Origin: Verrucomicrobiia bacterium
GTDB taxonomy: Bacteria; Verrucomicrobiota; Verrucomicrobiia; Verrucomicrobiales; DEV007
Length of the DNA: 64,000 bases
Assembly (NCBI GenBank): GCA_030427505.1
Contig: JAUICH010000005.1
Span: forward strand, 186,001 to 250,000
Direction of reading: 5' to 3'
The translations under genes were made by a program, and so were the position numbers. Under the pieces are notes generated by a model. It ran no database searches and was not told the origin of the DNA. It was given only the letters and a program-made list of their open reading frames with translations. This document shows, in pieces, positions 19,771-61,389 of the stretch (position 1 is the stretch's first letter; each line of letters starts with the position of its first letter).

Positions 19771-21564
19771 TCACACCTGCGCCATTAAACTCTTACAGCG
19801 GCTAATGGTTTGTTGAACGCTGTCGATAGCTGAACCCCAGAAGTCGGCCTTTCGAATGTCGGCCTGCAAAACTTTCTTGGCAACATCCTCGCAGGACATG
19901 GAGCCGGAATCGAGCAGGTACTGCTCATAGTTCCCGAAAAAGCTACTGCCGTGTTCTTTCAGTGAATTAAAGAGAGAGCGGCTCATTAAATAGCCAAATG
20001 TGTAGGGGAAGTTGTAGAAGCTGACTTCACCAATGTAAAAGTGCATCTTTGAAGCCCAGAAGTAGGGATTCTCTTCGCCCTCCTTCAAGGAGTCTCCGAA
20101 GATCTGCCGCTGAGTTTCGACCATGAGACGGTTGAGCGCGCTGACACTCAGTTCCTCCTCCGCGCGATGTTCGTAGAGAGCCTTTTCAAAGTAAAAGCGC
20201 GTGGGAATATCCAAGAGGAAACTCAGCGAGTGATTGAGTTCTTCGTCGAGGAAATGAAGTTTGATCGACGGATCGATGTCTTCTGCTTCGATGATTCCGT
20301 CTATGAGAATGAGTTCAGCGAAGGTCGAGGCCGATTCGGCCAGCGTCATCGGGTAGCCCTTCTCCCAGTGGCGTTTGCCCTTGAGAATGTGACTGTGGAA
20401 AGCATGCCCAACCTCATGAGCCAGGGTCATGATATCGTGAGGGCACGCGTTGTAAGTCATGAAGACCCGGGACTCTCCGTTGAAATCGGAAGTGGTGCAA
20501 AAGGCCCCAGGCCGTTTCGATGCCCTTGGTCTCCAATCAATCCATTTCGCCTCGCAGATCTCGTCGAAGAACTCCCCTAGTTTTGGATAGGAAGCGTGAA
20601 AAGAACGGCTCACCCAGGAAACCGCCGCGTCCCAGTCAATGGATTCGCTCGCTGCCTCGCTCTTTTGTGGAAACGCGGATTCCAAGTCATACCAGGAGAT
20701 GGCGTCGAGCCCCAGCCGCTCGGCTTTGAACTTCACGATTTCACGGGAGGTTTCGAGCCGAGTGTCGATCGCTTCGAACAGCGCATCCAGTGTCTCCCGT
20801 TCGATTCCCGCATCGAAAAGGGCTGGCTCCAGGAAGTGCTGCCCGCCCCGGTGGCGACAAAGGATCAACCGGCTTCCTGAGATTCCGTTCAGCGCCGACA
20901 TGGTCAGGGGAGCCACTTCCTTCCAAGCCGCCTCACCTCCCGTGAATGCGGCTTCCCGAATACGGCGGTCCGCATTGCTCATCAACGACCGGCATTGAGA
21001 AATTGGCAGCCTCTTGGTGCTGCCATCCGGGAACTTCATGTCGAACTCGAGCCGGGCCGAAACACCATCGTAAAGCCGTGACCAGGCATCCTTCGCCGTG
21101 ACCGACAGTTCAGCTGCTAAAGCCTCCTCCTTTAACGACATTCGCCAAAGAGATTGCTTCCTCAATCTCTCCAACTGGTAAGAAGCGGACTGAAGTTCTT
21201 CCGTATTGACCAGGTCGGTGAACTCTTCCTCAGAGTGGGCGCGCAGCCTGGCTTCAAACTGGCTGGTCAGGATCTCGACTTTCGCCTTCAGCTCACTAAG
21301 ACGTGCCTGTTCCGCAACATAGTCCTCGTTTGAGGCCTCGGCGGCCGTCAGGCAATCGATATACGTGGTGAGATGGGTGATCCGGCTGCCGATCTCCTCC
21401 AAGGCGAGGGCCGTGTCAATCTCGGTTGCGCGGTCCAAGTCTGATTGAGACAAGGTTTCCAACCGTTCTCCGAGAGCCTCAACGGACCCATGCAGGCCGT
21501 TCACAAAGTCCGTCATTGAAGAATCACGGAACGCAGAAAAAAAAGAGGTCAGATCCCAATCCAT
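19771..21564 (-). CDS. pepF: M3-family oligoendopeptidase (PepF-like)
   Basis: Zinc metallopeptidase that cleaves short peptides in the cytoplasm. The HExxH motif is HEVGHAFHSH (about residue 383), with the third ligand in the downstream ESASTFAEL helix. The 597-residue length and the conserved C-terminal PYTFGYLMSRSLF fit the M3B/PepF group. There is no signal peptide. It is the first of four unrelated peptidases within 9.3 kb (M3, M29, M20B, M42) around an ATP-grasp ligase gene. It is followed in the same direction, 87 bases upstream, by the PhyH-like gene. Confidence 0.92.
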   Translation of the reverse strand: MDWDLTSFFSAFRDSSMTDFVNGLHGSVEALGERLETLSQSDLDRATEIDTALALEEIGSRITHLTTYIDCLTAAEASNEDYVAEQARLSELKAKVEILTSQFEARLRAHSEEEFTDLVNTEELQSASYQLERLRKQSLWRMSLKEEALAAELSVTAKDAWSRLYDGVSARLEFDMKFPDGSTKRLPISQCRSLMSNADRRIREAAFTGGEAAWKEVAPLTMSALNGISGSRLILCRHRGGQHFLEPALFDAGIERETLDALFEAIDTRLETSREIVKFKAERLGLDAISWYDLESAFPQKSEAASESIDWDAAVSWVSRSFHASYPKLGEFFDEICEAKWIDWRPRASKRPGAFCTTSDFNGESRVFMTYNACPHDIMTLAHEVGHAFHSHILKGKRHWEKGYPMTLAESASTFAELILIDGIIEAEDIDPSIKLHFLDEELNHSLSFLLDIPTRFYFEKALYEHRAEEELSVSALNRLMVETQRQIFGDSLKEGEENPYFWASKMHFYIGEVSFYNFPYTFGYLMSRSLFNSLKEHGSSFFGNYEQYLLDSGSMSCEDVAKKVLQADIRKADFWGSAIDSVQQTISRCKSLMAQV

Positions 21565-21651
21565 TTCGTACTTTGATATTGATTGCCCTGATTACAAGAA
21601 GCAAAATTCTAGCTCTCTAGGCGATCTAGAAGTCAGACGAGCTCTTTCTAT

Positions 21652-22488
21652 CTAAAGTATCGTCGGGCAAATTTCTGGATCTGAATAGTCCGGGTCGCCT
21701 GCATCGTTTCGCCTTACCAGCAGGTCTACCTCGTGCTGGATAAGTTCACCATTTGCGCGGGTTGCGCGTACCCAATGATTGTCTTCCGGCTGATAGTGAA
21801 TGGCTACGACTATTCTTTCGGTTGAGCTAACATTCGGGCCGCTCCCATGTATCAATCGACACCCGTGAAAGGAAACAGAACCTTTCCGTAGAGTAGTGGC
21901 TGTCCTTTCTATTTTCCTTCCCGAAGAAGCGATTCTGAACTCGATCCCACTTCTGTCTTCCTGATAAAAATCTAACCCTTCATGGCTCTGTTCCCAGCGA
22001 TGGCTTCCCGCCAAAAATTCTATAGATCCATTCTCCGGCCCACAATCCGCAAGGGGGATCCAGGCGGTGACCATGTTCCGTGAGCCGCAAGTGCGCCAGT
22101 ACTGGCGATCGCGATGCCATCCGATGACTCCCTTCTTCATGGAGTTTGGGGAGGGACGCTTGGCGATGACCATATCGTTCCAAAGTCTAACAGATGAAGT
22201 CTCCAGTAGCTCCTTGGCTATTTCAGCTAGTTGCTGATTGAAAACAAGCTTTCGTAACCGTTTGCAGCAAAAACTGGCGAAATTCACCTGTATCAAACTT
22301 TCTGACCAATATTCCGTATCAAGATTCTTGTTCTCAAATTGAGGAGGACGCTGATCTCTCTTTCCCGAAAACAGGTCTTTTACGGCAACAGATATTTCAT
22401 CGAGTAGATGGTGATCCAGCAGACCGTCGATGGAGACATGTCCGTCGGCTTCGAACTTCGATACCAATGTGGGCTGAGCCAAATTCAT
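21652..22488 (-). CDS. PhyH-family Fe(II)/2-oxoglutarate dioxygenase
   Basis: Probable hydroxylase of the phytanoyl-CoA dioxygenase superfamily. The metal triad is visible: H and D in GWHRDRQYW and the distal H in LIHGSG, followed by the Arg that binds 2-oxoglutarate (STERIVVAIHY). The EFLAGSH block is also typical. 278 residues, the family's usual length. Base composition is AT-richer than the flanking regions. Substrate unknown; PhyH relatives in biosynthetic loci often hydroxylate amino acids or natural products, which would suit the peptide-processing neighbours (inference). Divergent from the GNAT gene, 61 bases apart. Confidence 0.87.
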   Translation of the reverse strand: MNLAQPTLVSKFEADGHVSIDGLLDHHLLDEISVAVKDLFSGKRDQRPPQFENKNLDTEYWSESLIQVNFASFCCKRLRKLVFNQQLAEIAKELLETSSVRLWNDMVIAKRPSPNSMKKGVIGWHRDRQYWRTCGSRNMVTAWIPLADCGPENGSIEFLAGSHRWEQSHEGLDFYQEDRSGIEFRIASSGRKIERTATTLRKGSVSFHGCRLIHGSGPNVSSTERIVVAIHYQPEDNHWVRATRANGELIQHEVDLLVRRNDAGDPDYSDPEICPTIL

Positions 22489-22549
22489 CTTGATTTCGTA
22501 ACGATTCTCTGACTCGATTGTTTCCTCACCAGTAGATCATAGCAACCTA

Positions 22550-23059
22550 ATGTTTTCATATCGCCAAGCGAAGGAGTCCGACCTGCGTGAAATTGCAGCG
22601 CTCGAAAAGATCGTTAGTCCAAAGGACTTCGCGACGCTTTCAGTTCTACGAGCAAGGCAGAATATGTTTCCGAGCGGCTTTTGGGTTGCGGAGACCAAAG
22701 GCAACGGGAAGAAGATGCTGATAGGTTACGTGATGTCGTGCAGGTGGAACCGGGAAGAATACCACCGCTTTGAAGACGTAGCCGATTTCCCCTCCAATCA
22801 CAACCCCAGGGGGGCAAACCTATACGTCATATTTTTGGCGGTCCACCCTGATTTTAGACGGCAGGGCGTTGGCAGTGAGTTGCTGTCGTCGATGATAGAA
22901 GCGCAAAGGAAAAAGTATACCGGGATATCAAAAGTTCAATTGGTCGCTCTCGATACTCTTCGCAACTTCTACGAACGGATGGGTTTCAAACTGATCCGCG
23001 AACTCCCGGAATGGCTGTCATATGCAGCAGGTCTTCTGATGCAAAAGAGCTTACGTTAA
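22550..23059 (+). CDS. GNAT-family N-acetyltransferase
   Basis: 169 residues. The acetyl-CoA-binding motif A is clear: LYVIFLAVHPDFRRQGVGSELL (R/Q-x-x-G-x-G/A type), followed by the late FYERMGFK motif. It transfers an acyl group from a CoA donor to an amine; the substrate is not predictable from sequence. It lies in the lower-GC segment with the PhyH and ATP-grasp genes and could act as tailoring or self-resistance for a peptide product (inference). It ends 21 bases before a 186-bp inverted-repeat element. Confidence 0.88.
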   Translation: MFSYRQAKESDLREIAALEKIVSPKDFATLSVLRARQNMFPSGFWVAETKGNGKKMLIGYVMSCRWNREEYHRFEDVADFPSNHNPRGANLYVIFLAVHPDFRRQGVGSELLSSMIEAQRKKYTGISKVQLVALDTLRNFYERMGFKLIRELPEWLSYAAGLLMQKSLR

Positions 23060-23080
23060 TCTTGTCCGTTGCCTAGTTCA

Positions 23081-23266
23081 CTGAACGCCTTAAAATGATG
23101 AGTGTTTGGTCTGAGCAAAGAGCCGCTGGCGACAGGGCGTTAACCGGTCTTTTTGGCTGGGGTCATCGTTGCTCTTCAGTCGGTTATGATTCACATAGCC
23201 TCCTTCATCGCGCCTTGCCCCCAGCCAAAAATCCTCGCCAATCACCCATCATCTTAAGGCGGTCAG
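23081..23266. repeat. 186-bp inverted-repeat element (MITE-like)
   Basis: The two ends form an inverted repeat: 23081-23109 pairs with 23238-23266, with 25 of 29 positions matching; the outermost 24 match at 21. The left end begins CTGAACGCCTTAA and the right end finishes TTAAGGCGGTCAG. A second, internal perfect 13-bp inverted repeat (23150-23162 and 23219-23231, TTTTTGGCTGGGG type) flanks a 56-base centre. There is no coding frame inside. This fits a miniature inverted-repeat transposable element or a structured RNA; no certain target duplication was seen. It fills the gap between the GNAT gene and the convergent membrane-protein gene. Confidence 0.6.
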
Positions 23267-23273
23267 CGCACTG

Positions 23274-24134
23274 TCAGACAGAGTATTTGAAAATGAATCC
23301 GAGGGACTTTGGATTCGGAGTGAACGATGTGATAAAATGACTCTCTGAGCCCTGTTTTTCGGGTTTGGCACTTACGTTGAGCTCCATTTGTCCGGTCTTG
23401 GAAATGTCGTATACAAAAACCGACTGAACTGGAAAATCTAGTCTCAGGTCTAACTCGACATTCCCGGAAATCTTAGCTGGCGGGTAGTGCCAAAGCGCAA
23501 AAAGGTCGAAGTCATCTTCTTTCGTGCCACAAGAGCGAAAGAAAGAAAACGTCCATGACACGTCAAAAGACTCTCCTTCGTGAACGGCTGTGTTGAATTC
23601 TATTTCAAAGGGAAACAGTTCCGCGTAGGCCTTTGTTAAATCCGATATTCTAAGGGATTCACCTGTAGCAGTGTCGGTTGCTTTTAGGTTGTCAATCTCT
23701 CTTGCCGCGGCAGCCATGATCAGCTTTAGGCCGGAAACGGGCCGGTTTGAAACAACCTGACCTTTTGCCTGGTAGGTGCCAACATAGGTGCCCTGAGAAT
23801 CGATAGTAGCCGAGAATTTTAGCAAATTGTATTCGAGGCCGTCATTTTTTAGATCAGGTCGCGGCTGTAAAATTGCTTCAAGAACGCGTACGTTCTGAAG
23901 CTGTAAGCCGGTCTTGAGAGGGGCAATTTTGCTCACAAAGCTTTTCTCGAAAACCTTCCGGTCAAAACCTTTGCCAACAAGCTTCATTACCAATAGATAG
24001 ATAACGTAGCTGACCGTGATGGCGGAACACGTTATCACCGCAACCATCGGCTCAAAGGCGACAATTGTTCCAACCACGCCTAGTGCGGCGGTAAAGAAAA
24101 CAATGAAGTTTTGAAACGTCTTGCCTTTTTCCAT
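23274..24134 (-). CDS. Membrane protein of unknown function
   Basis: 286 residues. Two hydrophobic helices near the N-terminus (FQNFIVFFTAALGVVGTIVAF and the AVITCSAITVSYVIYLLV segment) are joined by a very short loop. They anchor a soluble domain of about 220 residues that is beta-rich with several aromatic patches. By the positive-inside rule both ends should be cytoplasmic. No family recognised. It shares the lower GC of its neighbours. It could be an exporter accessory, immunity or sensor protein for the adjacent ATP-grasp locus, but nothing in the sequence proves that. Confidence 0.75.
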   Translation of the reverse strand: MEKGKTFQNFIVFFTAALGVVGTIVAFEPMVAVITCSAITVSYVIYLLVMKLVGKGFDRKVFEKSFVSKIAPLKTGLQLQNVRVLEAILQPRPDLKNDGLEYNLLKFSATIDSQGTYVGTYQAKGQVVSNRPVSGLKLIMAAAAREIDNLKATDTATGESLRISDLTKAYAELFPFEIEFNTAVHEGESFDVSWTFSFFRSCGTKEDDFDLFALWHYPPAKISGNVELDLRLDFPVQSVFVYDISKTGQMELNVSAKPEKQGSESHFITSFTPNPKSLGFIFKYSV

Positions 24135-24296
24135 AGTTTAAAAATCTACTGGCCGTTCATCTGATCTGACCTCTAAGAGCAAAATCCAACTCCGAAATCC
24201 ACTCTGAACCGCTGCTGTCACGCAAAAGGATTAGAATTTACTTGAGTTCCTGGAAGCTTCCAATCAAAATTTGGCGGAACTTCGAACCATAATCCT

Positions 24297-24368
24297 ATGA
24301 ATACCAAAATTGTTAAAGCGAAATCCCGGCAGGGTGGGAAAACCGTTAAGGCGATTGGAACCAGCTGA
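24297..24368 (+). CDS. Candidate short peptide gene, 23 residues
   Basis: ATG to TGA, encoding a Lys/Thr/Gly-rich basic peptide beginning MNTKIVKAKSRQGG and ending AIGTS. It is followed after 20 bases by a strong terminator and lies 219 bases before the ATP-grasp ligase gene. This is the common layout of a ribosomal-peptide precursor with an attenuator before its modifying enzyme. Against it: no clear ribosome binding site, and no Asp or Glu, which classical graspetide cores need. Real as an open frame, uncertain as a gene. Confidence 0.35.
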   Translation: MNTKIVKAKSRQGGKTVKAIGTS

Positions 24369-24388
24369 GATCGGTTTTGGCTATCTTG

Positions 24389-24432
24389 AAAGGTCAGCGC
24401 GGGATTAGTTCCCGCGCTGACCTTTTTGTTTG
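24389..24432 (+). terminator. Strong intrinsic terminator
   Basis: A perfect 16- to 17-bp stem (about 24389-24404 with 24410-24425; GGTCAGCGCGGGA arm) with a five-base TTAGT loop, ending in a T-rich run (TTTTTGTTTG). It is by far the best terminator in the window. It closes whatever transcript covers the 23-codon ORF at 24297 and would limit read-through into the ATP-grasp gene. Confidence 0.9.
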
Positions 24433-24460
24433 CTGGGAGACAGGTTTGCTCCGCTCAGGC

Positions 24461-24532
24461 ATGCCGGGAAAGAGCGTCTTGTGGCTTGAGCCTGAATCGC
24501 TTTCTGAAGTAAGAGCTCCGGACCGTCTCTGA
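24461..24532 (+). CDS. Second candidate short ORF, 23 residues
   Basis: ATG to TGA in the space between the terminator and the ATP-grasp gene, ending 55 bases before the latter. The peptide (starts MPGKSVLWLEPESL) contains Lys, Ser, several Glu and an Asp, so it has the side chains an MvdD-type ligase could join. There is no recognisable ribosome binding site, and frames of this length arise by chance. Listed as an alternative precursor only. Confidence 0.2.
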   Translation: MPGKSVLWLEPESLSEVRAPDRL

Positions 24533-24587
24533 AGAGTTTCTGCGCCGCAAGTGTCAGAGCAATAAATTGACACAATCTATCTAAGTC

Positions 24588-25592
24588 GTGAAACCAAAGG
24601 TATTGGTTATCGCTGAAGACTATTGGGTAGGGCGCCTGAATGGGCTATTTCTTTCTGAAATAGAGTCACTAGGCACTGTAGAATTGGAGTGCCTCAATTT
24701 TCGATCCGATGAGAGTCTCTTTACCGCGGACTCTAATAGAGTGCGAGTCCGGGAAGGAGATAAGACCGTAGACGTCCTCTCATATAGCCTTGTCATCTAC
24801 TTTCCAATGTATGTGACAGAGGCACGTTTTGAAAGGATCTCTGATGGTTCTTGCGGTGGAAACGAGGTTCGATCCGCCGAGTTCGAAAGATTCTTTCTGA
24901 AGCAATGGGATGCTCTGACTGAGTATGTCGAGTGGAGGCTTTCCGGTTACGCGAGAGTCCTGAACAACCCTGAAGGTGCCCGGAAGCTGGCGAACAAAGC
25001 AATCTTGTATAATTCTCTGGAGGAGAGCTATCGTTGTTCCCCTTGGCAGATGGGCAACGATGCCAAGGAAATTGGCTCGATGTTTCCGGAGCTGAGATCG
25101 GTAGTGATTAAGGCTGCTTCTGAAAGTTGCCAGATAAGCGAGGACTTGGCATTTGAAGTTTCTTGGCTGACAGAGCCTGACTTCAAGAATATCGTTTCGG
25201 ACCCACAAGCGCCAGCAATCTACCAGGCGGGTTCGGAGCAGCCTTCCGAACTTAGGCTCTATGCTTTTCAAGACGAAGTCTATTGCGTCCGGATTGAACT
25301 GGGATCTCGCGAATCTGTCGATGTGAGAGGCAGGGGATCGAACGAACTCACTTTTGTTGAATTTGAATGCGATCCTGAACTAAAGGATTATATCTGCGCT
25401 CTTTGCGGGAGTTTTGGCGTTTCATACTGTGCATTCGACTTGGTCCAGTTCGATAACCAATGGAAAATTGTGGATGCCAATCCTTCTGGGACTTGGGGGT
25501 GGCTACCGGATGAGTGCCAGAAACGTTGTGGCGAGATGTTTGCAAAATTGATTCTGAGAAGACTACAGGAAACTGACGATTTGCTTCACTAA
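24588..25592 (+). CDS. ATP-grasp ligase, MvdD-like (possible peptide maturase)
   Basis: 334 residues starting at GTG 24588. ATP-grasp ligases join a carboxylate to an amine or hydroxyl using ATP. The C-terminal signature YCAFDLVQFDNQWKIVDAN followed by PSGTWGW resembles the [E/D]xNPxGQWxW ending of MvdD/graspetide ligases that cross-link ribosomal peptides; the metal-binding Asp/Asn pair (DAN) is present. The N-terminal half (MKPKVLVIAEDYW) is a typical pre-ATP-grasp alpha/beta domain. Two very short ORFs and a terminator precede it. It overlaps the convergent M29 peptidase gene by four bases. Lower GC than surroundings. ATP-grasp is confident; ribosomal-peptide maturase is a reasoned guess. 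Confidence 0.8.
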   Translation: MKPKVLVIAEDYWVGRLNGLFLSEIESLGTVELECLNFRSDESLFTADSNRVRVREGDKTVDVLSYSLVIYFPMYVTEARFERISDGSCGGNEVRSAEFERFFLKQWDALTEYVEWRLSGYARVLNNPEGARKLANKAILYNSLEESYRCSPWQMGNDAKEIGSMFPELRSVVIKAASESCQISEDLAFEVSWLTEPDFKNIVSDPQAPAIYQAGSEQPSELRLYAFQDEVYCVRIELGSRESVDVRGRGSNELTFVEFECDPELKDYICALCGSFGVSYCAFDLVQFDNQWKIVDANPSGTWGWLPDECQKRCGEMFAKLILRRLQETDDLLH

Positions 25593-26692
25593 GCAGAGCT
25601 TGCGTTTAGAACTCGAAAAGTATCATCTGCAAACAAGCCGTCTTTTCTGAGAACTTGATTGTCCAAATAGATGGTGCCTGGGAAGTCTCTTCTTTGTATG
25701 GAAACCAAGTCCCAGTGTAGCTGGCTCCTATTGCCATTATCGGCGCAATCGTAGGCTCTTCCCAAAGCCAGGTGGAAGGAGCCCGCGATTTTCTCGTCGA
25801 AGTGAGTGTCGAATAGTGGCGCCGTGATCTTGGGGTTTAGTCCGAGAGCGAATTCGCCGAGAAATGAAGCTCCTTTGTCAGTGGCGAGCAGGCGTTTCAG
25901 CTTGTTGTCATTGGTTTCGGCTTGGGACGAAACGACCTTTCCATCCTTGAAACAGAGAGAGACCCTCCCGAAGATGGTGGACGCGTGGCTTGAGGGTACG
26001 TTGAAGAAAACCTCCCCATTCACGGACTTCTTGACTGGCGCGGTGAAGACTTCGCCACCTGGAATGTTTTCGCGGCCGCAGCAAAGACAGGCGGGTATTC
26101 CAGCGATGCTGAAGGCAAGGTCCGTGTTCTCTCCCACGATTCGCACTTGGTTAGCGTCTTCTATGATCTGGCGCAATCGCTCGGTTTCGGAGGCTACCGA
26201 AGACCAATCGAAAAGGCAGGCTTGGGCCCAGCTGTCGACAAACGCGTCCCACTCCTGATTGGCCTGTTGCGCCATCGACGGATTCGGCCAGCGTAGCCTC
26301 GTCCATTTACGATTCTTTGAGACGAATGAGGAGAATGGCGCTCTGACCTTTAGCAGCAAAGACAGCTTGTCGGAAGGGAGGTCGCTTTCCAAGGCCACGG
26401 GCGTTCCATCGAGGACAAGCACGACCGTTGAGGCTTGAGCTTTCTTGAGCTTTCGGGAGGCCATGATTTCGGCTTGCTCTTTAGTGAGCCTGCGGGCAAT
26501 TTCGGAATTTGACAGTGACGACTCGTTGTCGGCGATGGCGGTGGCTCCACGCTTTTTGGCTCCCTCAACAAAGGCGGCCGTGGCTTCCGGGGCGATGTCC
26601 TTGGCCTCGATGTAAAGACAGTCAGTGGGGCCAATCTCCAGGGCGAAATCCAGTACGCGATCAACAAGCTTTGCCAGCAGTTCGTCAGTCAT
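25589..26692 (-). CDS. M29-family aminopeptidase
   Basis: Cytosolic metallo-aminopeptidase releasing N-terminal residues from peptides. The typical M29 blocks are present in order: NIPGGEVFTAP, FLGEFALGLNP, FDEKIAGSFHLALGRAY and SQLHWDLV, which carry the Glu, His and Asp metal ligands. 367 residues, close to the usual size (about 370-410). No signal peptide. Divergent from pepT with only 33 bases between starts (AT-rich, with TATTATAG), so the two genes probably share a compact promoter region. Confidence 0.9.
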   Translation of the reverse strand: MTDELLAKLVDRVLDFALEIGPTDCLYIEAKDIAPEATAAFVEGAKKRGATAIADNESSLSNSEIARRLTKEQAEIMASRKLKKAQASTVVLVLDGTPVALESDLPSDKLSLLLKVRAPFSSFVSKNRKWTRLRWPNPSMAQQANQEWDAFVDSWAQACLFDWSSVASETERLRQIIEDANQVRIVGENTDLAFSIAGIPACLCCGRENIPGGEVFTAPVKKSVNGEVFFNVPSSHASTIFGRVSLCFKDGKVVSSQAETNDNKLKRLLATDKGASFLGEFALGLNPKITAPLFDTHFDEKIAGSFHLALGRAYDCADNGNRSQLHWDLVSIQRRDFPGTIYLDNQVLRKDGLFADDTFRVLNASSA

Positions 26693-26725
26693 CTATTGCA
26701 AATATATTATAGTCCCAGCGAATCT

Positions 26726-27988
26726 ATGGAAGACTTAGAGAAAGTAAAAGAGTTCCTCTTGGAAGATCTGCCGGCCCGGTTCGTGCGTTATGCGCGAGTC
26801 TATACCACCGCCAGTCTGGCGCCGAAAGAAACGAACGGTCCGTCCTCGAAAGGTCAGTGGAAACTGCTCGAGATGTTGAAGAGCGAACTTCTCGAACTTG
26901 GCTTGAAGCAGGTGGAGCTGGACGAGAATGGCTACCTGTACGCCGTGGTGCCTCCGACGAGAGGAATCAAGTGCGAGGACATTGGGTTTTTGGCACACGT
27001 AGATACGTCACCAGACCAATCGGGCCGCTTCGTAAAGCCCAGGCTGATCAAAGATTACGATGGTTCTCCGATTTCTTATCCAGACAATCCCGAACTGGAA
27101 CTAACTACCGCGAATTCTCCACAACTGAAGAATTGTCTCGGGCATACTATCATTACCGCGTCGGGCAAGACATTACTGGGTGCGGATGACAAAGCCGGTG
27201 TCGCGGAGATCATGTCGGTGGCGGCGGCATTGATGAAGTTTAAGAAGATTCCTCACGGCAAGATCGTGCTGTGCTTTACCCGGGACGAAGAGATCGGCTG
27301 CGGTGTAAACCATATCAATTTAGAAAGGCTACCGACTTATTGCTATACGGTGGACGGTGCGTCACCTAACGAATTGGAAGATGAATGTTTCACCGCGTGG
27401 GGGTTCCGCGCTGTTTTTAAAGGATTCACGACACATCCTGGCTATGCGAAAGGAAAGCTTGCAAACGCGCTTAAAGCGGCGGCGGCCTTCGTGGATGGCT
27501 TGCCGCCAGATGAATCGCCTGAAAGAACCGGCGGAACGAAAGGGTTCATTCATCCCATGCATATGGACGGCACCACTGACGAGATGGTTGTCAGCGGTAT
27601 CATACGCGACTTCAAAAGCGCGAATTGTAAAAGGCGGATCGCAAAGCTGGAGGAGCTAGGCAGGTTGGCGACTGAAGGAGATCCCAGATTTTCGTTTCAC
27701 TTGGAGACGCGTCTGCAATACCAAAACATGAAGGAGTTGCTGAAGGACCATCCCCGGGTCACGGACCATGCGCTGGCCGCCATCAAGCGCTCTGGGCTCA
27801 CTCCCAAAAGGGAACGAATTCGTGGCGGCACGGACGGTTCCCGTCTTACTTTTCAGGGCAAATACACGCCCAATCTCGGCTCGGGAGCTTATATGATTCA
27901 TTCGAAGCTCGAATGGACCAGCGACAAGACCATGGCGAAGTGCGCGGAGGTGATCGTCAATCTCGCCATGCAATGGGCGGGGCATTGA
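26726..27988 (+). CDS. pepT: Peptidase T (M20B tripeptide aminopeptidase)
   Basis: Hydrolyses tripeptides in the cytoplasm. ATG 26726 (MEDLEKVKEFLL) is the likely start; the frame is open to 26696. The M20 metal ligands are visible: H and D in AHVDTSPD (about residue 90), D in LLGADDKAG (about 152), the catalytic E in RDEEIGCGVNH (about 188) and the distal H late in the chain (GAYMIHSKLEW). 420 residues, as expected for PepT. Convergent with the M42 gene, 12 bases apart. Confidence 0.93.
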   Translation: MEDLEKVKEFLLEDLPARFVRYARVYTTASLAPKETNGPSSKGQWKLLEMLKSELLELGLKQVELDENGYLYAVVPPTRGIKCEDIGFLAHVDTSPDQSGRFVKPRLIKDYDGSPISYPDNPELELTTANSPQLKNCLGHTIITASGKTLLGADDKAGVAEIMSVAAALMKFKKIPHGKIVLCFTRDEEIGCGVNHINLERLPTYCYTVDGASPNELEDECFTAWGFRAVFKGFTTHPGYAKGKLANALKAAAAFVDGLPPDESPERTGGTKGFIHPMHMDGTTDEMVVSGIIRDFKSANCKRRIAKLEELGRLATEGDPRFSFHLETRLQYQNMKELLKDHPRVTDHALAAIKRSGLTPKRERIRGGTDGSRLTFQGKYTPNLGSGAYMIHSKLEWTSDKTMAKCAEVIVNLAMQWAGH

Positions 27989-28000
27989 GTCCGTTTGGAG

Positions 28001-29086
28001 TCAGACGAAAGCGCCTTCGCGGATGCTTTTGAGGACCACGCGAGGGGAGCCTTCCAGGAAGGCGGTTATCAGTTCCACCGAGGAGCTCAGGTCCGCCATG
28101 TCAACGACTTCAGAAGCGGTATGCATGTACCGAAGCGGATAAGAGAGAAGAATGGTGGGAATTCCACCATTCGCCTGGCAAACGGTGTCGGCATCCGTTC
28201 CGGTGATCTTGGGAAACACTTCCTTTTGGATCGGTATCTGTTTTTCGTGAGCCAGTTTTTCGAAGGCTCGATTCAGCAGCGGATTCATTCCGCACCCGAA
28301 AGTTAAGGTGGGGCCGTGGCCCAATTGGACAAGCCCATCTCGTTCGGGCTGGTCAACGGGGGAGTCCGTGGAGAAAGTGGCGTCCAGGACGACTGCGAGA
28401 TCGATGTCCAGTTGGCTGATGGCGGCCCTGATACCCTGTCCGCCGGTTTCTTCATTGACCGCGAAAAGCACCGAAAGCCGTACTTCGTTGTCTCGCAGAA
28501 GACCGGCATCCACGCGCTCGAGGACACTTAGAATAATCGAACAGGCGAACGAGTTGTCGAGACCGCCCGCCATGACCCTCGACGGAGAAATCTCTTTGGG
28601 GTCCGATCCAAAGTATCCCATGCTCCCGACTGCCAGCCCAGCGTTCAGGACTTCCTCTTTTGAGGAAAAGCCAAAGTCCACGTAGACCTCCTCCCAATTG
28701 GTCGGGAGGGCATCGTGGGTATTTCCTAGAAAGCTTGGATCTGTGTAGGAAACCACGCCACGTACGTCTTCTCCCGATCCGGAGAACACAAGCACTTGGC
28801 CCAGGCTGCCCTCAATATCGCCGCGCCCCAACGGAATGATGCTGGCTCTTCCGTCTTTCGCGATGTGCTTGATGGCGAAACCGATTCTATCGCGATGAGC
28901 TTCAAGCAGTATCCTGACAGGATTCTCTCCGGCGTCGTTACCCATCTGAGCAAAAACGTTTCCCATGCTGTCCATGCGGACTTTGCAACCCAAAGCCTTG
29001 AGACGATTCAGCAACTGGTCGGGCTTCCGGTCCCCATTGGGTTCGAAAAGGGGATAGTAATCTTTTAGAAATTGGGATGGCTTCAA
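28001..29086 (-). CDS. M42-family aminopeptidase
   Basis: Large cytosolic metallo-aminopeptidase/endoglucanase-family protein (FrvX/TET type). Motifs in order: RILLEAHRDRIGF (metal His, here H-R-D rather than the common H-x-D), GGLDNSFA (Asp ligand), NEETGGQG (catalytic Glu pair), GTDAD, and SYPLRYMHTASEVVD (last His). 361 residues, usual length. The frame begins at TTG 29086; I see no ATG early enough to replace it, so a TTG start is likely. Fourth peptidase of the 19.8-29.1 kb region. Confidence 0.88.
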   Translation of the reverse strand: MKPSQFLKDYYPLFEPNGDRKPDQLLNRLKALGCKVRMDSMGNVFAQMGNDAGENPVRILLEAHRDRIGFAIKHIAKDGRASIIPLGRGDIEGSLGQVLVFSGSGEDVRGVVSYTDPSFLGNTHDALPTNWEEVYVDFGFSSKEEVLNAGLAVGSMGYFGSDPKEISPSRVMAGGLDNSFACSIILSVLERVDAGLLRDNEVRLSVLFAVNEETGGQGIRAAISQLDIDLAVVLDATFSTDSPVDQPERDGLVQLGHGPTLTFGCGMNPLLNRAFEKLAHEKQIPIQKEVFPKITGTDADTVCQANGGIPTILLSYPLRYMHTASEVVDMADLSSSVELITAFLEGSPRVVLKSIREGAFV

Positions 29087-46373: not shown

Positions 46374-48149
46374 TTAGAACCGCACCATCGTACTGATGTG
46401 CCAGCGGGCGGACTCGCCGTCTTCGAAACCGCTTTGGTCGAGTTGCCAGCCGTAGGCGAGGCGGAGGGACAGATAGCTGGCCAGCCGGTACTCCAGGCCC
46501 AGGCCGGCGCCGCCCAGGCTCTGGCTGTCGGGTTCGCCCGGCAGGCGATCCACGTTGCAGGCCCAGGCCGCGTCGTAGAAGCCGAAGACACGCATCTTCT
46601 CTTCGTCGAGGTCCAGCCCCAGCGTGTTCAGGGGGTAAAACTCGGGGCCATACAGTTCGGCACTGAGGCGGATGCCTTCGTCGGCGCGAGTGATATTCTG
46701 CTCGAAACCGCGCACGGATCCGATGCCGCCGAGGACCATCGCCTCGCTGGGCAGCAGGTTACCGTTGCTCCATTGCCCTTCCAGTTTGAACACAAAGACA
46801 AAGTCGCTTGGTAGATTCACGATCTGCGTGAGTTCGCCGGTCCAATAGAGGTAGTCCGCGCTGCCCAAGCCGCGGAGTTCCTGGAAAGATTCATCAGAGT
46901 TATGAGCGCTCAGGTCCCCCGGGCTCCAAACCAGTTGGGTGCTGAGGAATTGCCGGCCAAAGGGCTGTTCCTTCTTGGCCGAAAGGCCAGCCGAAAACTG
47001 GAAGATCTCAGCCGTGGAGTCCGCCACCGTGGCGCCGCCGAACTCAAGGTTGTTGTTGGTGCTCTTGAAGTCAAAGCCCAGGCGCAGGTCCGGTGTGTAG
47101 CCCGCGAATTTCGGCAGCGGGATGAGGTAAACGCCACTCAATTGCTCGCTTTCGCCCTTGGTTTCCAGCACCTCGCCCGCCGCGCGGAGTTCCGCGCCAC
47201 TTTCCACGTAACCGGCCAGAAACTGGAACTCGTGGCGCCACTGGTGAATGGGCAGGCGGTAGCTCAGGGCATGCGCGTGGAGATTTTCGAACTCCAGCGT
47301 GGTGGTGTACTGGTAGCCGAGGATGTGGTCCCAGCCAAATACGTTACCCCACTCCAGGCCAAAGAAGAGGCGGTCCTCGCCGATCAGTTCGTTGCCTGTG
47401 TTGTCATAGCCGGCGTACGCGCTGTAGGGCCGTTTCTCCTCCACTTCCAGGGTCAGGTCGGCTTCGGCAAACTCATCGCCGGGGCTGTACACCAGGCCTA
47501 CTTGGCGGTAGGGGTTGCGGTTCAGGTAGCGCAGGTCATCCAGTAGCGGGTCCTGCTTGATTACCTGGCCCCGCTGGATGCGGAAGGAGCGCAGGTAGAG
47601 GTTTTCGTCGAAATACTTCGTGCCGGTCACGTTGATGTCTCCGGCCCGGCCTAGCACCACCACCAACTGCAGGATGCCGCCGCTGACGTCCTGTTCGGGC
47701 AGGGCCACGTCCACTACCGGCATCCCGGCTTTCCGGTAGGCCAGCACCACATCGCGGGCCATTTCGTGAACTCGCTTCAGGCTCAGGGGGCTGTCGATGT
47801 AATCAGCCAGCGCGGACATCACTTCCACCGGCACCGGCAATTCGCCGTCTCCCACGTCCAGCCCCGCCACCTCCGGCGGGTTGTCAGCCTGGACCTGGTC
47901 CGGATGACCCCAGAGCATGATGCCCTTGATCTCACCGACGATCTCATCGCTGTACTCGCTGATGTCCGCGGGTTCGTCTTCCGGAGGCATCTGCACTTCC
48001 GGTTCCTCCCGCGCCAGCGGCTCTGGTTCCGCCACGGCGGGTTTGATACGTTCCATGTCCTGCGCGAAGGTCACGCCCATGACATGAACGCCCAGGGCCA
48101 GGACGATTGGCCGGATTAGGACAGTAAAAGTGTTGCGAGGCGATTTCAT
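46374..48149 (-). CDS. TpsB outer-membrane transporter (FhaC/ShlB-like)
   Basis: Beta-barrel pore that exports TpsA across the outer membrane. 591 residues: signal peptide ending near VTFAQ; an acidic linker; a POTRA region (DYIDSPLSLKRVHEMARDVV to LGRAGDINVTGTKYF); then the barrel, with the conserved loop-6 motif VRGF in GGIGSVRGFEQN (about residue 481) and an aromatic C-terminal end (STMVRF). ATG 48149 is one base from the TpsA stop, so the two genes are translationally coupled. Confidence 0.95.
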   Translation of the reverse strand: MKSPRNTFTVLIRPIVLALGVHVMGVTFAQDMERIKPAVAEPEPLAREEPEVQMPPEDEPADISEYSDEIVGEIKGIMLWGHPDQVQADNPPEVAGLDVGDGELPVPVEVMSALADYIDSPLSLKRVHEMARDVVLAYRKAGMPVVDVALPEQDVSGGILQLVVVLGRAGDINVTGTKYFDENLYLRSFRIQRGQVIKQDPLLDDLRYLNRNPYRQVGLVYSPGDEFAEADLTLEVEEKRPYSAYAGYDNTGNELIGEDRLFFGLEWGNVFGWDHILGYQYTTTLEFENLHAHALSYRLPIHQWRHEFQFLAGYVESGAELRAAGEVLETKGESEQLSGVYLIPLPKFAGYTPDLRLGFDFKSTNNNLEFGGATVADSTAEIFQFSAGLSAKKEQPFGRQFLSTQLVWSPGDLSAHNSDESFQELRGLGSADYLYWTGELTQIVNLPSDFVFVFKLEGQWSNGNLLPSEAMVLGGIGSVRGFEQNITRADEGIRLSAELYGPEFYPLNTLGLDLDEEKMRVFGFYDAAWACNVDRLPGEPDSQSLGGAGLGLEYRLASYLSLRLAYGWQLDQSGFEDGESARWHISTMVRF

Positions 48150-48150
48150 T

Positions 48151-51100
48151 CTATTCTTCGACTTCCACTTCGCCGCTGCCCAGGGTGAAGATGTTTCCGA
48201 ACTCGGGTAGCAGGTTGGAGTCTCCTCCGATGTTCAGTCCCTGCGGGTCGAACAGCGGCAGCTTGAACGGATCCTCCAGTTGTTCAAGGACACTTTGGGT
48301 CAGAACGAAGTCAAAGAACGGGTTGGCCAGCAGGTCCAGCACCTCCGGCGGCAGGGCATCCTCTACCTGGATGACCACCAGTGGGGTCTCATCGCCGTCA
48401 CCAGGTACCACGCCAAAGGGGATTCCCAGGTCCACCAGCACTTCCAGGTCGTCCTCCACCTCCGGAGGCAAGGAATAGAAGGCGTAGTTCCCAATCGTGA
48501 GATCCGGCGTGTAGGAACCCTCCCCGAAGGCGAAGAGTCCCATGTTGTTCAAGACCGTGCCATTGGTTGGGACCGTGGTGGCTTCGTTCAGAGTCGCGCC
48601 CTCGCCCTGCCAACCCGTGGTGCTGGGAATGTAGAACCGCAACTCACCCGACGGCCCGCTGAAGAAGCCGGTGGTCGAGTCCGCGGTCAGGGTGGCGGAA
48701 AGGTCCAGGAAGGGCTCCGTCTGGCCCACGCCGATGTAGGTGTTTCCACTGACGTAAGTGCCGTCTGGCCCGATCACGTGGCCGATGGCGGCGTTCGTCA
48801 GCGTGGCGGAACCGCCCGCCTTCACCATCACGTCGCCCTCCACCGTCTGCCCCGCGTCGTCATCCAGGAGCAAGTCGCCGTGGCCGAGCAGCACGTAGCG
48901 GGTGGCCAGGCCCTGGCCTTCCAGGGTCAGGTCGCCATTCAGGCTGACCTCGATCATCCCGCTGAAGTCGCCGCCGGTCAGCGGGCCGCCGTTGCCCACC
49001 TGCACCTGGGTAAAGAGCCCGGTTCCCGCGGTCAGGGAAACGTCTTCCACATCCACCACCCGGATGTCGCCGCTGTGATCGCCCATGGAAAGGACACCCC
49101 CTTGGCCGAGCTGTGCGTAGGCGCCAAAGCCCTCTCCGCCAGCGAAGGTGACGTCCCCGGTATCGCTGATCTCCGTGGTGCCGCCGTGGTCGCCGAAGGC
49201 GCCGGCGCCGCCTTGGCCGAGTTGGGCGTAGGACAAGATTCCTTCCCCACCCGTGAAGGTCACGCTGTTGGCCTGGCTGATGGTCGTGGTGCCGCCGAAG
49301 TCTCCCGTGGCCAGGAAGCCGCCCTGGCCGATCTGCGCGTAGGCCAGATCCCCGTCACCACCGGTGACCGTGACCTTGTTGCCGGCGATGATGCCGATGT
49401 TCGAAGTCGCCCAGGCATCGTCGAAGGAATCAAATCCCGCCTGACCTCCCACGTGCCCGATCTGGGCATAGTTGAGCGGCCCGTCATTTCCGCCCGCGAC
49501 CTTCAGGTTATTCCGCACCCGGAGATTCATGTCCCCGTCCACCGTCAAAGAGCCGCCGTCCGCCGTCAGGTCGTAATCGCCCATGGCGTAGCCATCGCGG
49601 GCCCGGAAGCCCAGCTGCGCGAAGCGGCCCGGAGCGCCGGAGCCGTTCCCGCCCTGGACCGTTACGTTATTCCCGAAGACATTCGCCGTGCCGGAGCGTG
49701 TGCCCACCGCCACTCCCAGAGGCTGCAAACCGGCCCCGACAATGACCGAGCCCAGGTTCTGCCCATACAGGGTAGTGGAGGAAACGTCCTCATCCAGGAA
49801 AGTAGCCGCGTCGAACATCGTGCCGCCATCCCAGCCGGCCACGATGTTCAGGTCGCCCCCCGTGGTGTTGCGGTTCTGCAGGCCGCCCAGGAAAGTGACA
49901 TTCCCGGTGGCGATCAAGTCCAGGGAGTAGGGCGAGTCATACAGCAAATAGGAGGACAGGCGGATGAAACTCGTGCCGCCGTCCGTATCCGCCACCGCGC
50001 CAAACTCCGCCCGGCCCAGGCGGTTGGTGATCAGCGACAGGTTCCCCATGCCCAGCGCCGCCTCGATGTTCGCCGAGGCTTCCGGATCGATGATGTAGTT
50101 CACCTGGTCCGGCAGCACGTAGTAGGAAAACTCCGGCGTGTAGGGGCCGTCGCCAAAGACAAACTGGCCCTGGAAATTCGGCGCCTGGGCGCCGCCGTGG
50201 GCCACGCCATTGAGTTTGGTGGCGGTATCGACCAGGTCGTTCGCCGCGTCTCCCAGGTAAATGCGCAGCTCACCCCCCTGGGCATCCAGGGCGCTGTTCA
50301 GTTGGCTGTCCGCGTCCGCCGTCAGATCTCCCAACAGACCGAGGTAGGTGTTTCCGCTGGTATAGCTGCCGCCCGTGGGCGTCCGGTGGCCGAGAATAGC
50401 CCGGGTCAGGGTCACGTCGCCACCCACCCGCACGGTTACATTGCCCTGCACGCTTTCGCCCGTGTCCGTGTCCCCCGGCTGATCGCCATGACCGAGGATG
50501 GCATACCGGTTGTTCAGCGCCGTTCCCCCGGTCAGGGTGAGATCCCCGTCAATGGTCAGGTCGATCGTTCCGCTGAAGTTCCCCTTGGCGAAATAACCGC
50601 CCTGGCCCAACTGCGCGACTGCCTCCGGACCGGTGCCGCCGTTAAAGGTCACGTCGTTGACAAAATTCATTAAGGTCGTCCCGCCGTGGTCGCCATCCGC
50701 GCTGGAGCCGCCCTGGCCGAGTTGCGCGTATGCTCCGGGAGCGCTGCCCGCGGAGAAGGTAATGTCGTGGATGTGCGACAGCTGGATGGTCCCGTCGTGG
50801 CTGCCGTCCGCGTCATGCCCGCCCTGACCCAGGTGCGCGTAGTTCACGTTCATGCTGCCGCCCGTGAAGACAATGTCGTTCACCCAGCTCAACTCGATGG
50901 TGCCCTCGTGACTGCCAACGGCGTAGGCGCCGCCGTTCCCCAGATGCGCGTAAGCGTTCTTGCTCGTCATCCCGGCAGTGAAGGTCAGGTTATGCACCTG
51001 CGTCACCAGGATGTCCCCGCTGTGGCTGCCCTGGGCGGTGTAGCCGCCCTGGCCGAGCTGCGCGTAGGTTTCCTGGCCCGTGCCCGCTTCGAAGGTCACA

Positions 51101-54100
51101 TCATTCGCCTGAGTAATGGAAATGTTCCCGCCGTGGTTGCCGTAGGCGTTCGCGCCGCCCTGGCCCAGCTGGACATAGGACCGGATGGCTCCGCCGCCGG
51201 TAAAGGTAATGTCATTGCCCACCGCGATCTCGATGTCTGATGTGGCCCGCGCTTCCGTCTGCCGGAAGCCGGTCAGCGCCCCGCCCACGTGCCCCACTTG
51301 GGCGTAGGTGTTCGCGCCGGTGTCCCCGCCCGTGGCGCTCAGGTCGTTCCGGACGCGGAGGTTCATGTCCCCGTCCACCACCACGTCCCGGCCATCCGTC
51401 CGGGTGGGGTCCAGGTCAAACCCACCCTGGGCGACGCCGTCCGTCACCTGAAAGCCCAACTGCGCGAAGCGGTTGTCCCCCGCGCCGTTGCCGGCCTGGA
51501 GGCTCACGTCATACCCAAAGACATTCGCCGTTCCCGAGCGCGTGCCCACCGCCACCCCGGCCGCCTGCGTGCCGTCCCCGATGAAGACGGAGCCCATGTT
51601 CTGCCCGAACAGCGTGGTGGTGGAAATGTCCTCGTCCAGGAACGTGTCCGCGTCAAAAGCCGTGCTGGCGTCCCAGCCGGCCACCAGGTTCAGGCCGCCG
51701 CCCGTGTCATTCCGGTTCTGCACGCTGGCTAGGAAGGTGATGTCCCCCGTCGCGATCATATCCAGGTCGAACAGCGAGTCGTAGAACAGGTCGTTGTCCA
51801 CCCGGATGAAACTCGTGCCGCCGTCCAAGTCCGCCACCGCGCCAAAGTCCGCGCGTCCCAGCCGGTTGGTAATGAGGGACACGCCGCCCGTTCCCAGCGC
51901 CGCCTCGATGTTCGCGGCCGCCGTGCTGTCCACGATGTAGTTCACCAGTTCCGGCAGCGTGTAGTAGGAGAACTCCGCCGTGTAGGGCCCCGCGCCAAAG
52001 ACGTGCTGGCCCTGGTTGTTCGGCGCCGGGGTGGCCCCGTGGGCGATGCCGTTCAGCAGCGTGGCCGCATCCACCAGGTCATTCGCCGGATCGTCCAAGT
52101 AGAAGCGCAGTTCGCCCCCTTGTGCCGCCAGGGCGCTGCGGAACTGGCTGTCCGCGTCCGCCGTCAGGTCGCCCGTCAGACCCACATACGTATTGCCGCT
52201 GGAGTAAGTCCCGTCTCCGTCTATCTGGTGCCCCAGGAAAGCCTTCGTCAGCGTGATGTTCCCGTCCGCCCGCACGGTCACGTCGCCCGACACGGTGTCT
52301 CCAGCGTCTCCGTCCCCCGGGTCGTCCCCGTGGCCGATTTGGGCATAACGGACGCTATGGTTCTGACCGGTCAGCGTCAGGTTCCCACCCACGTAGACGT
52401 CGATGGTCCCGCTGTTACTGCCATCCGCATCCACTCCCCCATGGCCCAGGAGCGCGTAGGCCGCGCCGTCCGCATCCGCTTCAAAGGTCACGTCCCCCGT
52501 CGTGCTCACGGTCAGGTTGCCGCTATGGTCGCCAATCGCCCCACCGCCACCTTGGCCCAATTGCACGTAGGCCGATGTGCCGAGCCCGGCTTTGAAGGTC
52601 AGCGATCCGATCTGGCTCAGCACCGTGGTCCCGCTGTGGTCGCCCACGCTTCCGGCGCCCCCCTGGCCCAGCTGGGCGAAAGCTGTGGAACCCTCACCGC
52701 CTTGGAAAGAAACCTCATCGATGTCGCTCAGCGTTGCCGTGCCATTGGTATCGCCATGGGCGCCAAATCCCCCCTGGCCCAGTTGCACATAGGCCAAGTA
52801 CCCGTCCCCGCCCAGGAAATCCAGCAGACCGATGTGGCTCAAGGTCGCCGTGCCGTCGTGATTGCCACCCGCGATTAGGCCCCCCTGGCCCAGTTGCGCA
52901 TAGGCAAATTCGCCCTCGCCTCCATAGAAATAAACTTCGCCGATGTCGCTCAGCGTCGCCGTTCCTCCGTGACTGCCATCGGCGGTGGAGCCGCCCTGGC
53001 CCAACTGCGCATAGGCATAGTCACCCTCACCGCCGTAATAGTCCAGGATGCCAATGTGGCTCAACGTCGCCATGCCATTGTGATTACCGGAGGCTTCGTT
53101 ACCTCCGTTGCCCAACTGCGCGTAGGCATAGTCACCCACGCCTCCATAAAAATAGACCTCATCTAGATAGCTGAGCGTCGCCGTGCCGGTGTGATCGCCG
53201 TCGGCCGCGAAGCCGCCCTGACCCAGTTGCGCGTAGGCACCTTTTCCTTCACCGCCGAAAAAGTTCAAAATGCCAATGTAGCTCAACGTCGCGGTACCCT
53301 CGTGATTTCCGAAAGCGGATAAACCGCCCTGGCCCAACTGCGCGTAGGACCCAAGCCCCAGCCCGCCTTCAAAGTAGACCCCATTGATGTAGCTCAACGT
53401 GGTCGTTCCGCTGTGCGCGCCATCATTCCCGGCGCCGCCCTGACCCAGTTGCGCGTAGGCCTCCACCCCGTCGCCCCCTTCGAAGTAAACCTCATCTATG
53501 TAACTCAGCGTCGTGGTTCCGCTGTGTTCGCCATCCGCAATATCGCCCCCCTGGCCCAATTGCACGTAGGCATAGTCTCCTTCCCCGGCCACAAAGTCCA
53601 ACAAGCCGATATTGCTCAGCGTCGCCGTGCCGGTGTGATCGCCGCCGGCCGCGAAGCCGCCCTGGCCCAGTTGCGCGTAGGAACTTTCACCCACGCCTCC
53701 GTAGAAATAGACCTCATCAATGTCGCTCAGCGTCGCGGTGCCTCTGAAGTTGCCCATGATGACTGCGGCGCTGGAACCGCCCTGACCCAATTGCACATAG
53801 GCGTCATCGCCTTCGCCGCCATTGAAATCCAACAGACCGATGTCGCTCAGCGTCGCGGTGCCTTCAAAGTCGCCGCTGGCTCCGAACCCTCCCTGACCCA
53901 GGTGCGCGTAGGCTCTATCTCCGTCGCCTCCATAAAAATAGACCTCATCAATGTCGCTCAGTTCCACCGTTCCCTCGAGGTATCCCAAGGCGTGGTACCC
54001 GCCTTGGCCGAGCTGCGCATAGGCATCGTTACCTACGCCTCCTTCGAAGTCTAACGTGTCGAGGTCTTCTATCCACACTTCGCCGCTGTGATCGCCTTCG

Positions 54101-57100
54101 GCGTCTAAGCCGCCCTGGCCCAACTGCGCGTAGGCTTGGGTACCTCCTCCTCCGTAAAACGTGACATCTTCGGCGTCTTCAATTTCCACCCATCCCCAGT
54201 GGTCGCCATCGGCATCCAGGCCTCCCTGGCCCAGTTGCACGTAGGCGCCTTTCCCGTCGCCCGCGGTAAAGTGGATGTCATCCACATCCCAAATCACCGT
54301 CTCACCCCACTGATCGCCGGTGGTGGACGCGCCGCCCTGGCCCAGTTGCGCGTAGGCTGCCTGCCCGCCGCCTCCGCTGAACTCGACATCGTCGGCTTCG
54401 TAAATGATCACGCCGCCGTCGTGACCGCCACGGGTGAAAGATCCGCCATGACCGAGTTGCGCGTAGGCATTGTCACCCGCTCCGCCAGAAAAGAGGATGT
54501 CGTCGCCGGCGGCAATCTCAATCCAGGAGTAAGCCGACGCCTCAATATAGGGGTCCACGGCCAGGTCCGCGCCCACGTGTCCCACCTGGGCATAGGTGAA
54601 CTCCCCGGTATCCCCGCCCGTGGCGCTCAGGACGTTCAGGACACCGACATACATGTCCCCGTCCACCCAAACGTAGCTCCCGTCATTACGGGTGGGGTCC
54701 AGGTCAAAGCCGCCCAGCGCCATGCCATCGGATACCTGGAAGCCCAATTGCGCGAAGCGGCCATCCCCCGCGCCGTTGCCGCCCTGGAGACTGACATCAT
54801 AACCAAAAACGTTCGTTATCCCGGAACGCGTGCCCACTGCCACTCCGGCGGCCTGCGTGCCGTCCCCGATGAAGACAGAGCCATCGTTCTGGCCATACAT
54901 CGTGGCGGAACTCACGTCCTCATCCCAGTAGGTGACCGGGTTGTAGGCCGAACTCCCGTCCCACCCGGCCACCAGCTCCAGGTCGCCGTTGGTGGCATTC
55001 CGGTTCTGCAGGCTGGCGTTGAAGGTGATGTCCCCCGTGGCGATCAGGTCCAGGTAGAAAGGCGAGTCGTAGAACAAGTCACTGTCCACCCGGATGAAGC
55101 TCGTGCCGCCGTCCAGGTCCGGCACCGCGCCAAACTCCGCCAGGCCAAAGGGCGTGGTGTCCAGCACCAGGCTCCCGCTTCCCAGCGCCGTGGCAATGTT
55201 CGCCGCCGCCGTGGCGTCGATGATGTAGTTCACCGCCGACGGCAGGGTGTAGTAGGAAAACTCCGCCGCGTAGGGACCGGAGCCAAAGAGGTGGGAACCC
55301 TGGCTATTCGGCGCCTGACTGCCCCCGTGGGCCACGCCGTTTAGCGTGGCGGCGGTGTCCACCAGGTCGTTCGCCGTGTCCGTCAGGTAAATGCGCAGTT
55401 CGCCCCCCTGCGCGTCCAAGGCGCTGCGGAACTGGCTGTCCGCGTCCGCCGTCAGCGTGCCCGCCACGCCCAGGTAGGTATTGCCAGAGGCGTAGGCGCC
55501 ACCGGAACCATTCTCGTGGCCGATGGTGGCTCTTTCCAGGTTGGCGTCGCCCAGCACGCGCACTATCACGTCACCCGTCATCGTGTTCCCCGTGTCGCCG
55601 GCCCCGGTATCATTGCCATGGCCGATCCGGACGTAACTCGAAGGGATTGCCAACCGGGTCAGTGTCAGGTCTCCCTGGATGTATAGATCGATCGTTCCGC
55701 TGTGGTCGCCTCGGGACTGATTTCCCCCGTTTCCAAGTTGCGCGGAAGCCCCGGTGCTGGTTTCAATGGTCACGCCGGAGACTTGGCTCAGCGTCGTGTC
55801 GCCGCTCTGGTCGCCCTCGACCGAGCTACCCCCCTGACCGAGTTGCGCGTAGGCGACGACACCGCTCCCGGCCCTGAAGGTCACCTCTCCCGACTGGCTC
55901 AGGGTCGTGGTGCCGCTGTGGTTGCCATTGGCGTGGACCCCCCCCTGACCCAGTTGGGCGTAGGCTTGGTCGCCTGATCCTCCCTCGAAAATCACGTCAC
56001 CCGCCTGGCTCAGCAGCGTGGTGCCGCTGAAATTGCCGGAAAGCAGGGATCCTCCCTGTCCAAGTTGGGCGTGGGATCCTTCGCCCGCGCCTCCTTTGAA
56101 GGTCACGTCATCCACCTCGGCCACGGTCGTGGTGCCGCTGTGGTTGCCATCGGACTCGTCCCCGCCCTGGCCCAGTTGCGCATAGGCATAGTCACCATCA
56201 CCTCCCAAAAAATCGATGTCTTCGGCATCGATGATGGTCAGGGTGCCACTGTGGTCGCCGCTCGCCGCGTATCCGCCCTGGCCAAACTGCGCGTAAGAGT
56301 AATCACCCGTCCCCCCTTCGAAGGTGAGGTCGTAGGCATCAACCACCATCGTGGTGCCGCTGTGGTTGCCGCGGGCTGAATACCCTCCCTGGCCGAGTTG
56401 GGCGTAAGCGTTGGCCCCGCCGCCCCCGATGAAATCCATGTCTCCCACGTCGTAAATTTCCGTGGTGCCGCTGTGGTTGCCATAGGTGCGGTATCCCCCG
56501 TGACCCAGTTGGGCGTAGGAACGGGCGCCGTCCCCACCTAAGAACTCGACATCCCCGGCTTCGAAAACCGTGACGCCGCCGCCGTGGTTGCCGCGGGCGT
56601 TTGCGCCCCCCTGGCCCAGTTGCGCGTAGGCATTGTTGCCCGCTCCGGCGGCGAAATAGATATCGCCGCCGGCCGCAATCTCAATCCAGGAGGTAGCCAC
56701 GGCCTCGACGTCCGTGTCATTCACCTGGTCCGCGCCGACGTGCCCCACCTGCGCATAGGTGCGGGCCCCGGTATCCCCGCCCATGGCGGTCAGGCCGTCC
56801 AGGACGCGGAGATTCATGTCGCCATCCACCACCACGTTCTCCCCGTCCGTCCGGGTGGGATCCAGGTCAAAGCCGCCCAGTGCCACGCCGTCGGTCACCT
56901 GGAAGCCCAATTGCGCGAAACGGCCGTCCCCCGCGCCATTGCCGCCCTGGAGACTGATGTCATACCCCATGACATTCGCCGCGCCCGAGCGCGTGCCCAC
57001 CGCCACTCCGGCGGCCTGCGTGCCGTCCCCAATGAAGACGGAGCCATCGTTCTGCCCATACATCGTAACGTCATCCACGTCTTCCCACAGGAAAATGTCC

Positions 57101-61326: not shown

Positions 61327-61389
61327 AGCGACAAGCAGTAAAGGCTGGATTTCGGGAAGACAAGCAATAACCTTGCCGGTTAAGTGCAT

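Follow-up and report, generated by a model that had tools for sequence, protein, structure and literature searches.

Does a short reading frame lying upstream of an ATP-grasp ligase gene, with a strong terminator between the two, mark a new ribosomal-peptide locus? The question is raised by a 64-kb stretch of DNA (the window) from a 6.4-Mb draft genome of the phylum Verrucomicrobiota, assembled in 56 contigs, for which a preliminary description had proposed such a locus, composed of a 23-codon ORF (ORF1), a terminator, a second 23-codon ORF (ORF2) and a GTG-started ligase gene. Each of these features is indeed present, in the following arrangement:

23274..24134, minus strand: 286-aa protein with a hydrophobic N-terminal part, divergently oriented, without family assignment
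24297..24368, plus strand: ORF1, MNTKIVKAKSRQGGKTVKAIGTS followed by a stop, 23 codons, codon score +6.3 bits
24388..24426, plus strand: intrinsic terminator hairpin, 17 pairs, loop of 5, T-rich tail
24461..24532, plus strand: ORF2, MPGKSVLWLEPESLSEVRAPDRL followed by a stop, 23 codons, a frame that scores as non-coding
24588..25592, plus strand: divergent graspetide-type ATP-grasp peptide ligase, GTG start, 334 aa
25589..26692, minus strand: M29 aminopeptidase, convergent, sharing 4 nt with the end of the ligase gene; context, outside the unit

The explanation that we favor, and consider on balance probable, is that 24588-25592 codes for a graspetide-synthetase-type ligase, orphan and strongly diverged, whose substrate lies elsewhere, and that the short unit upstream is separate from it. 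This reading is based on the family affinity of the ligase, its fold, its invariant residues, the lack of a canonical adjacent precursor, its orphan status and its low-GC setting.

By profile as well as by fold, the ligase is nearest to the MvdC/MvdD/TgmB-type (graspetide) ligases, as expected for the MvdD-like enzyme initially described, and it carries the reported PSGTWGW ending, within the sequence DANPSGTWGW. It matched TIGR04187 (E 1.3e-13), MvdC (2.1e-9) and MvdD (4.2e-5), while no match to the RimK-family profile was found up to E 1. These scores stay far below the curated cut-offs of TIGR04187 (50.8 of 350 bits), TIGR04185 (36.9 of 425) and TIGR04184 (22.9 of 475). All nine columns that are invariant in a 60-sequence alignment are kept (Q213, R223, D245, R247, D284, N298, P299, G301 and W305), as are K137 and K175, and position 296 holds an Asp where the family has Glu. 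The N-terminal R-R-P motif, where 58 of 59 relatives have Arg, is gone, the ligase reading VIYFPMY in a region of low pLDDT; also missing are the Arg aligned to residue 32, present in 56 of 59 relatives, and, in the middle part, a number of Gly/Pro landmarks. Judging from the loss of the two arginines, the ligase may have left the graspetide ligases for a different ligase role. The microviridin leader contacts the middle subdomain (Makarova et al., PMC8939145), so that the losses of the R-R-P motif and of these landmarks would fit an altered or lost leader interaction. The libraries of defense systems and phage families that we searched contain no match for the ligase.

An AlphaFold2 model of the ligase, built from the 60-sequence alignment (pLDDT 82.8, pTM 0.83), predicts an ATP-grasp fold that is closest to the MdnC/PsnB structures. 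Its top PDB matches are PsnB (7drp and 7drm, Z 24.5 and 24.3), MdnC (5ig9, Z 24.0) and AMdnB (7m4s, Z 23.7), followed by a ligase from Chryseobacterium (7mgv, Z 22.8); RimK (5zk6, Z 22.0) ranks below all of these. With the graspetide synthetases (MdnC, MdnB, PsnB, AMdnB, 7mgv; TIGR04187, TIGR04185, TIGR04184) the ligase thus has in common the ATP-grasp fold over its whole length, the DxR motif, the NPxGxWxW ending and the other invariant residues. In contrast to them, it shows 14-17% identity in structure alignments, falls below the family cut-offs and lacks both the N-terminal R-R-P motif and an adjacent precursor.

The ligase is isolated. A search of 57 genomes of the family and order yielded no relative within the organism's own family, and among the genomes of the order, class and phylum, plasmids, phages and viral contigs, relatives are only distant (about 20-30% identity over partial length); the relatives searched include no genome of the same genus. 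Exact ligase peptides found no relative in 85,000 species genomes, and the family profile, run against the same set, returned only distant relatives among the matches listed, none of them above about 30% identity over partial length. In the genome itself, no second ligase of this kind was found. In the tree, the branch of the ligase has a length of 3.68 changes per column, 11 times the median of 0.33, which leaves its place unsure; only the stem of a same-order pair, L006 and L007, rivals it in length (3.43). The ligase of one same-class relative, L009, is identical to that of L077. We also noticed another type of graspetide-like ATP-grasp protein with a very long branch, 312 aa in size, encoded at L150:4715-5653 on the minus strand and also present in L006 and L007, all of the same order; its gene lies directly upstream of a hemC-like gene and overlaps the reading frame of the latter.

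We then considered whether either 23-residue ORF could be the precursor, as had been suggested. At 72 of 91 related ligase loci, the ligase gene is adjoined by an ORF of 40-150 aa whose tail is acidic and T/S/K-bearing, compared with 23 of 472 other long ORFs taken from these loci as a control; examples of such precursor-like tails are TKKCDIEKGEDMKDRRMWA and TKKNDLETGEDQKGE. The ORFs that abut these 72 ligases are unrelated to ORF1 and ORF2 and much longer, typical precursors having mostly 50-120 aa against the 23 aa of ORF1, which argues against the suggestion. No acidic-core ORF in the 40-150 aa range adjoins the ligase of the window. One same-class genome holds a canonical-looking graspetide locus (L148:958-1938), with a precursor, MKFTPFLFRFARAC...TKKCDIEKGEDMKDRRMWA, just upstream of the ligase. 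Genome-wide, the best hit of the TIGR04186 precursor model had an E of 1.3 and 12 bits, against a cut-off of 25, and an alignment of eight precursors found none at E 1, in a search that had no positive control; unusual precursors would escape both searches. Beside related ATP-grasp genes, we found no credible relative of ORF1 or ORF2, a result that the preliminary description itself had named as speaking against its proposal; because the related ligases are distant, these missing relatives weaken the precursor claim rather than exclude it. The precursor-terminator-enzyme layout is compatible with the DNA, its one support being position. We find no support for the more specific proposal that this is a new ribosomal-peptide locus.

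Are the two frames genes at all? When the 453-nt intergenic stretch is subjected to dinucleotide shuffling, 63% of the shuffles contain an ATG-started ORF of 23 codons or more on the plus strand, and 5% contain one with the codon score of ORF1 (6.3 bits), or 20% when six frames and all start codons are counted. Among the 62 intergenic small ORFs of the window, ORF1 ranks second by codon score. It harbors a GG doublet at residues 13-14 and, as previously described, contains neither Asp nor Glu. Its GC1 is lower than its GC3, the neighboring accessory genes showing the reverse or near equality. No relative of ORF1 was found in its own genome, in relatives, on plasmids or beside related ligases, and it matches no family; weak matches in relatives (E 0.7-0.9) were treated as chance, since none is a short ORF adjoining a ligase. 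Since chance could account for its length and score, neither relatives nor a family were found and, outside the terminator, the RNA folds no better than shuffles, the gene status of ORF1 is undecided between a small protein and a small RNA carrying a chance ORF. ORF2 is probably not a gene: its frame scores -9.1 bits when read from an upstream TTG, and neither relatives nor other positive evidence was found for it.

The terminator, in contrast, is not a chance feature, and its description as very strong is borne out: the hairpin at 24388-24426, with 10 GC among its 17 pairs, is the strongest terminator-like site in the window. The folded segment that includes it has a z of -5.1, which is due to the hairpin, the region 24270-24387 alone having a z of +0.6. 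The hairpin probably ends a short plus-strand transcript. Since the gene at 23274-24134 lies on the opposite strand, we can fairly infer that such a transcript ends near 24430, the alternative being read-through from a GNAT gene at 22550-23059. Promoter matches before ORF1 reach only 8 of 12 positions, as in TTGAGT-17-CAAAAT at 24242-24270. ORF1 and the terminator would form a separate short transcription unit, producing a small RNA or a small basic protein and lying upstream of the ligase by happenstance. This unit is most likely independent of the ligase and unrelated to it.

The locus lies in a low-GC setting. The ligase and its left-hand neighbors from 21652 have a GC of 0.46-0.50 and a GC3 of 0.50-0.58, while most other genes measured are higher (GC 0.51-0.66, GC3 0.59-0.79). 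For the 286-aa neighbor, a search of 338 genomes sampled from the phylum found no relative. Nor do relatives offer a convincing counterpart to the DNA of 24140-24590, whose sole other match within the genome is the hairpin against its own reverse strand. Nothing reached the family cut-offs of Rfam, either over the whole window or, at a low threshold, over 24100-24650. The low GC, the orphan neighbor and the isolation and long branch of the ligase together suggest that 21.6-25.6 kb is an accessory patch, perhaps acquired. Farther along, the minus strand of the window encodes a two-partner secretion pair (46374-61389), composed of a ShlB/FhaC-type transporter (46374-48149) and an exoprotein of 4412 aa (48151-61389) that carries a TPS secretion domain at its N terminus and shows a weak cohesin-like match.

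The genes around the ligase raise the possibility that it partners the surrounding peptidases and joins or caps peptides cut from other proteins. Genes for M3, M29, M20 and M42 peptidases lie within 5 kb of the ligase, in 10 kb of the window (19771-29086), and no precursor was recognized in the locus. Graspetide ligases that associate with peptidases and lack precursors have precedents in branches 7 and 8 of the graspetide ATP-grasps, for which Makarova et al. (2022, PMC8939145) report several peptidase families and no precursors, and propose that the substrates are peptides released from other proteins. The likeness of our locus to these branches is one of locus content, namely the nearby peptidase genes and the lack of a recognizable precursor. 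Unlike in branches 7 and 8, the peptidases here are neither co-directional with the ligase nor conserved as a cluster. None shares an operon with it, M29 being convergent and the others lying beyond M29 or in the opposite orientation. Moreover, M29 is single-copy in almost every relative from the order, also where the ligase is missing, and in the ten relatives examined we found no conserved peptidase cluster, M29 being the only one of the window genes tested that was found near its counterpart. Given that M29 is order-wide, that the other peptidases do not travel with it and that none is in the ligase operon, the resemblance to branches 7 and 8 is a lead only, and a partnership with the peptidases would, on this analysis, be improbable.

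A role as a RimK-like amino-acid or protein ligase, no longer acting on ribosomal peptides and arisen from, or branching beside, the graspetide ligases, is unlikely too, if less so. The very long branch, the loss of the N-terminal Arg and of the Pro/Gly landmarks, the lack of a precursor and the near-equal closeness of RimK structures (RimK and LysX-type ligases share the fold, with Z about 18-22) would all agree with it, but the ligase retains two features that do not vary within the graspetide-type set, the D245-x-R247 motif and the NPxGxWxW ending, and sequence profiles favor graspetide ligases only. RimK and LysX/ArgX extend protein C-termini, and the resemblance of the ligase fold to theirs could also be taken in support of ORF1 as the substrate, made from its own strong promoter, with the terminator setting the ratio of peptide to enzyme, and modified at its C terminus, in a RimK- or LysX-like manner, or on Lys, Ser or Thr by an external acid. 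The position of ORF1 on the same strand, the strong terminator between it and the ligase, the GG doublet and the positive codon score are in keeping with such a system. We nevertheless regard it as very unlikely: besides lacking Asp and Glu, ORF1 has no Phhx(1,2)h leader motif and falls short of the usual precursor length, its relatives are absent everywhere searched, its length is expected by chance, its GC1 and GC3 are unlike those of neighboring accessory genes, and the ligase lacks the RimK profile match. That ORF1 is a genuine acid-free substrate or carrier of a graspetide-derived ligase, receiving a C-terminal extension or a Lys/Ser/Thr acylation, is highly improbable; if true, it would mean that graspetide-type enzymes modify a ribosomal peptide without an Asp/Glu core.

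We thus retain the orphan graspetide-type ligase with a substrate encoded elsewhere. The predicted enzyme is probably active; with ATP and Mg, it would phosphorylate a peptide carboxylate, on an Asp or Glu side chain or possibly at the C terminus, and the activated carboxylate would then be joined to a Ser/Thr hydroxyl or to a Lys or N-terminal amine. The substrate itself would more likely be encoded in trans or produced from another protein. As neither tiny frame resembles the peptide of such a ligase, the locus holds a lone member of a known enzyme family and does not demonstrate a new peptide system. The graspetide-type ATP-grasp ligases, rare in the genomes of the phylum that we searched, gain one extreme outlier with it. 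The locus is also a reminder that a short ORF next to a RiPP-like ligase says little in favor of a precursor. If the substrate were found, it would show how far such enzymes drift in leader recognition.
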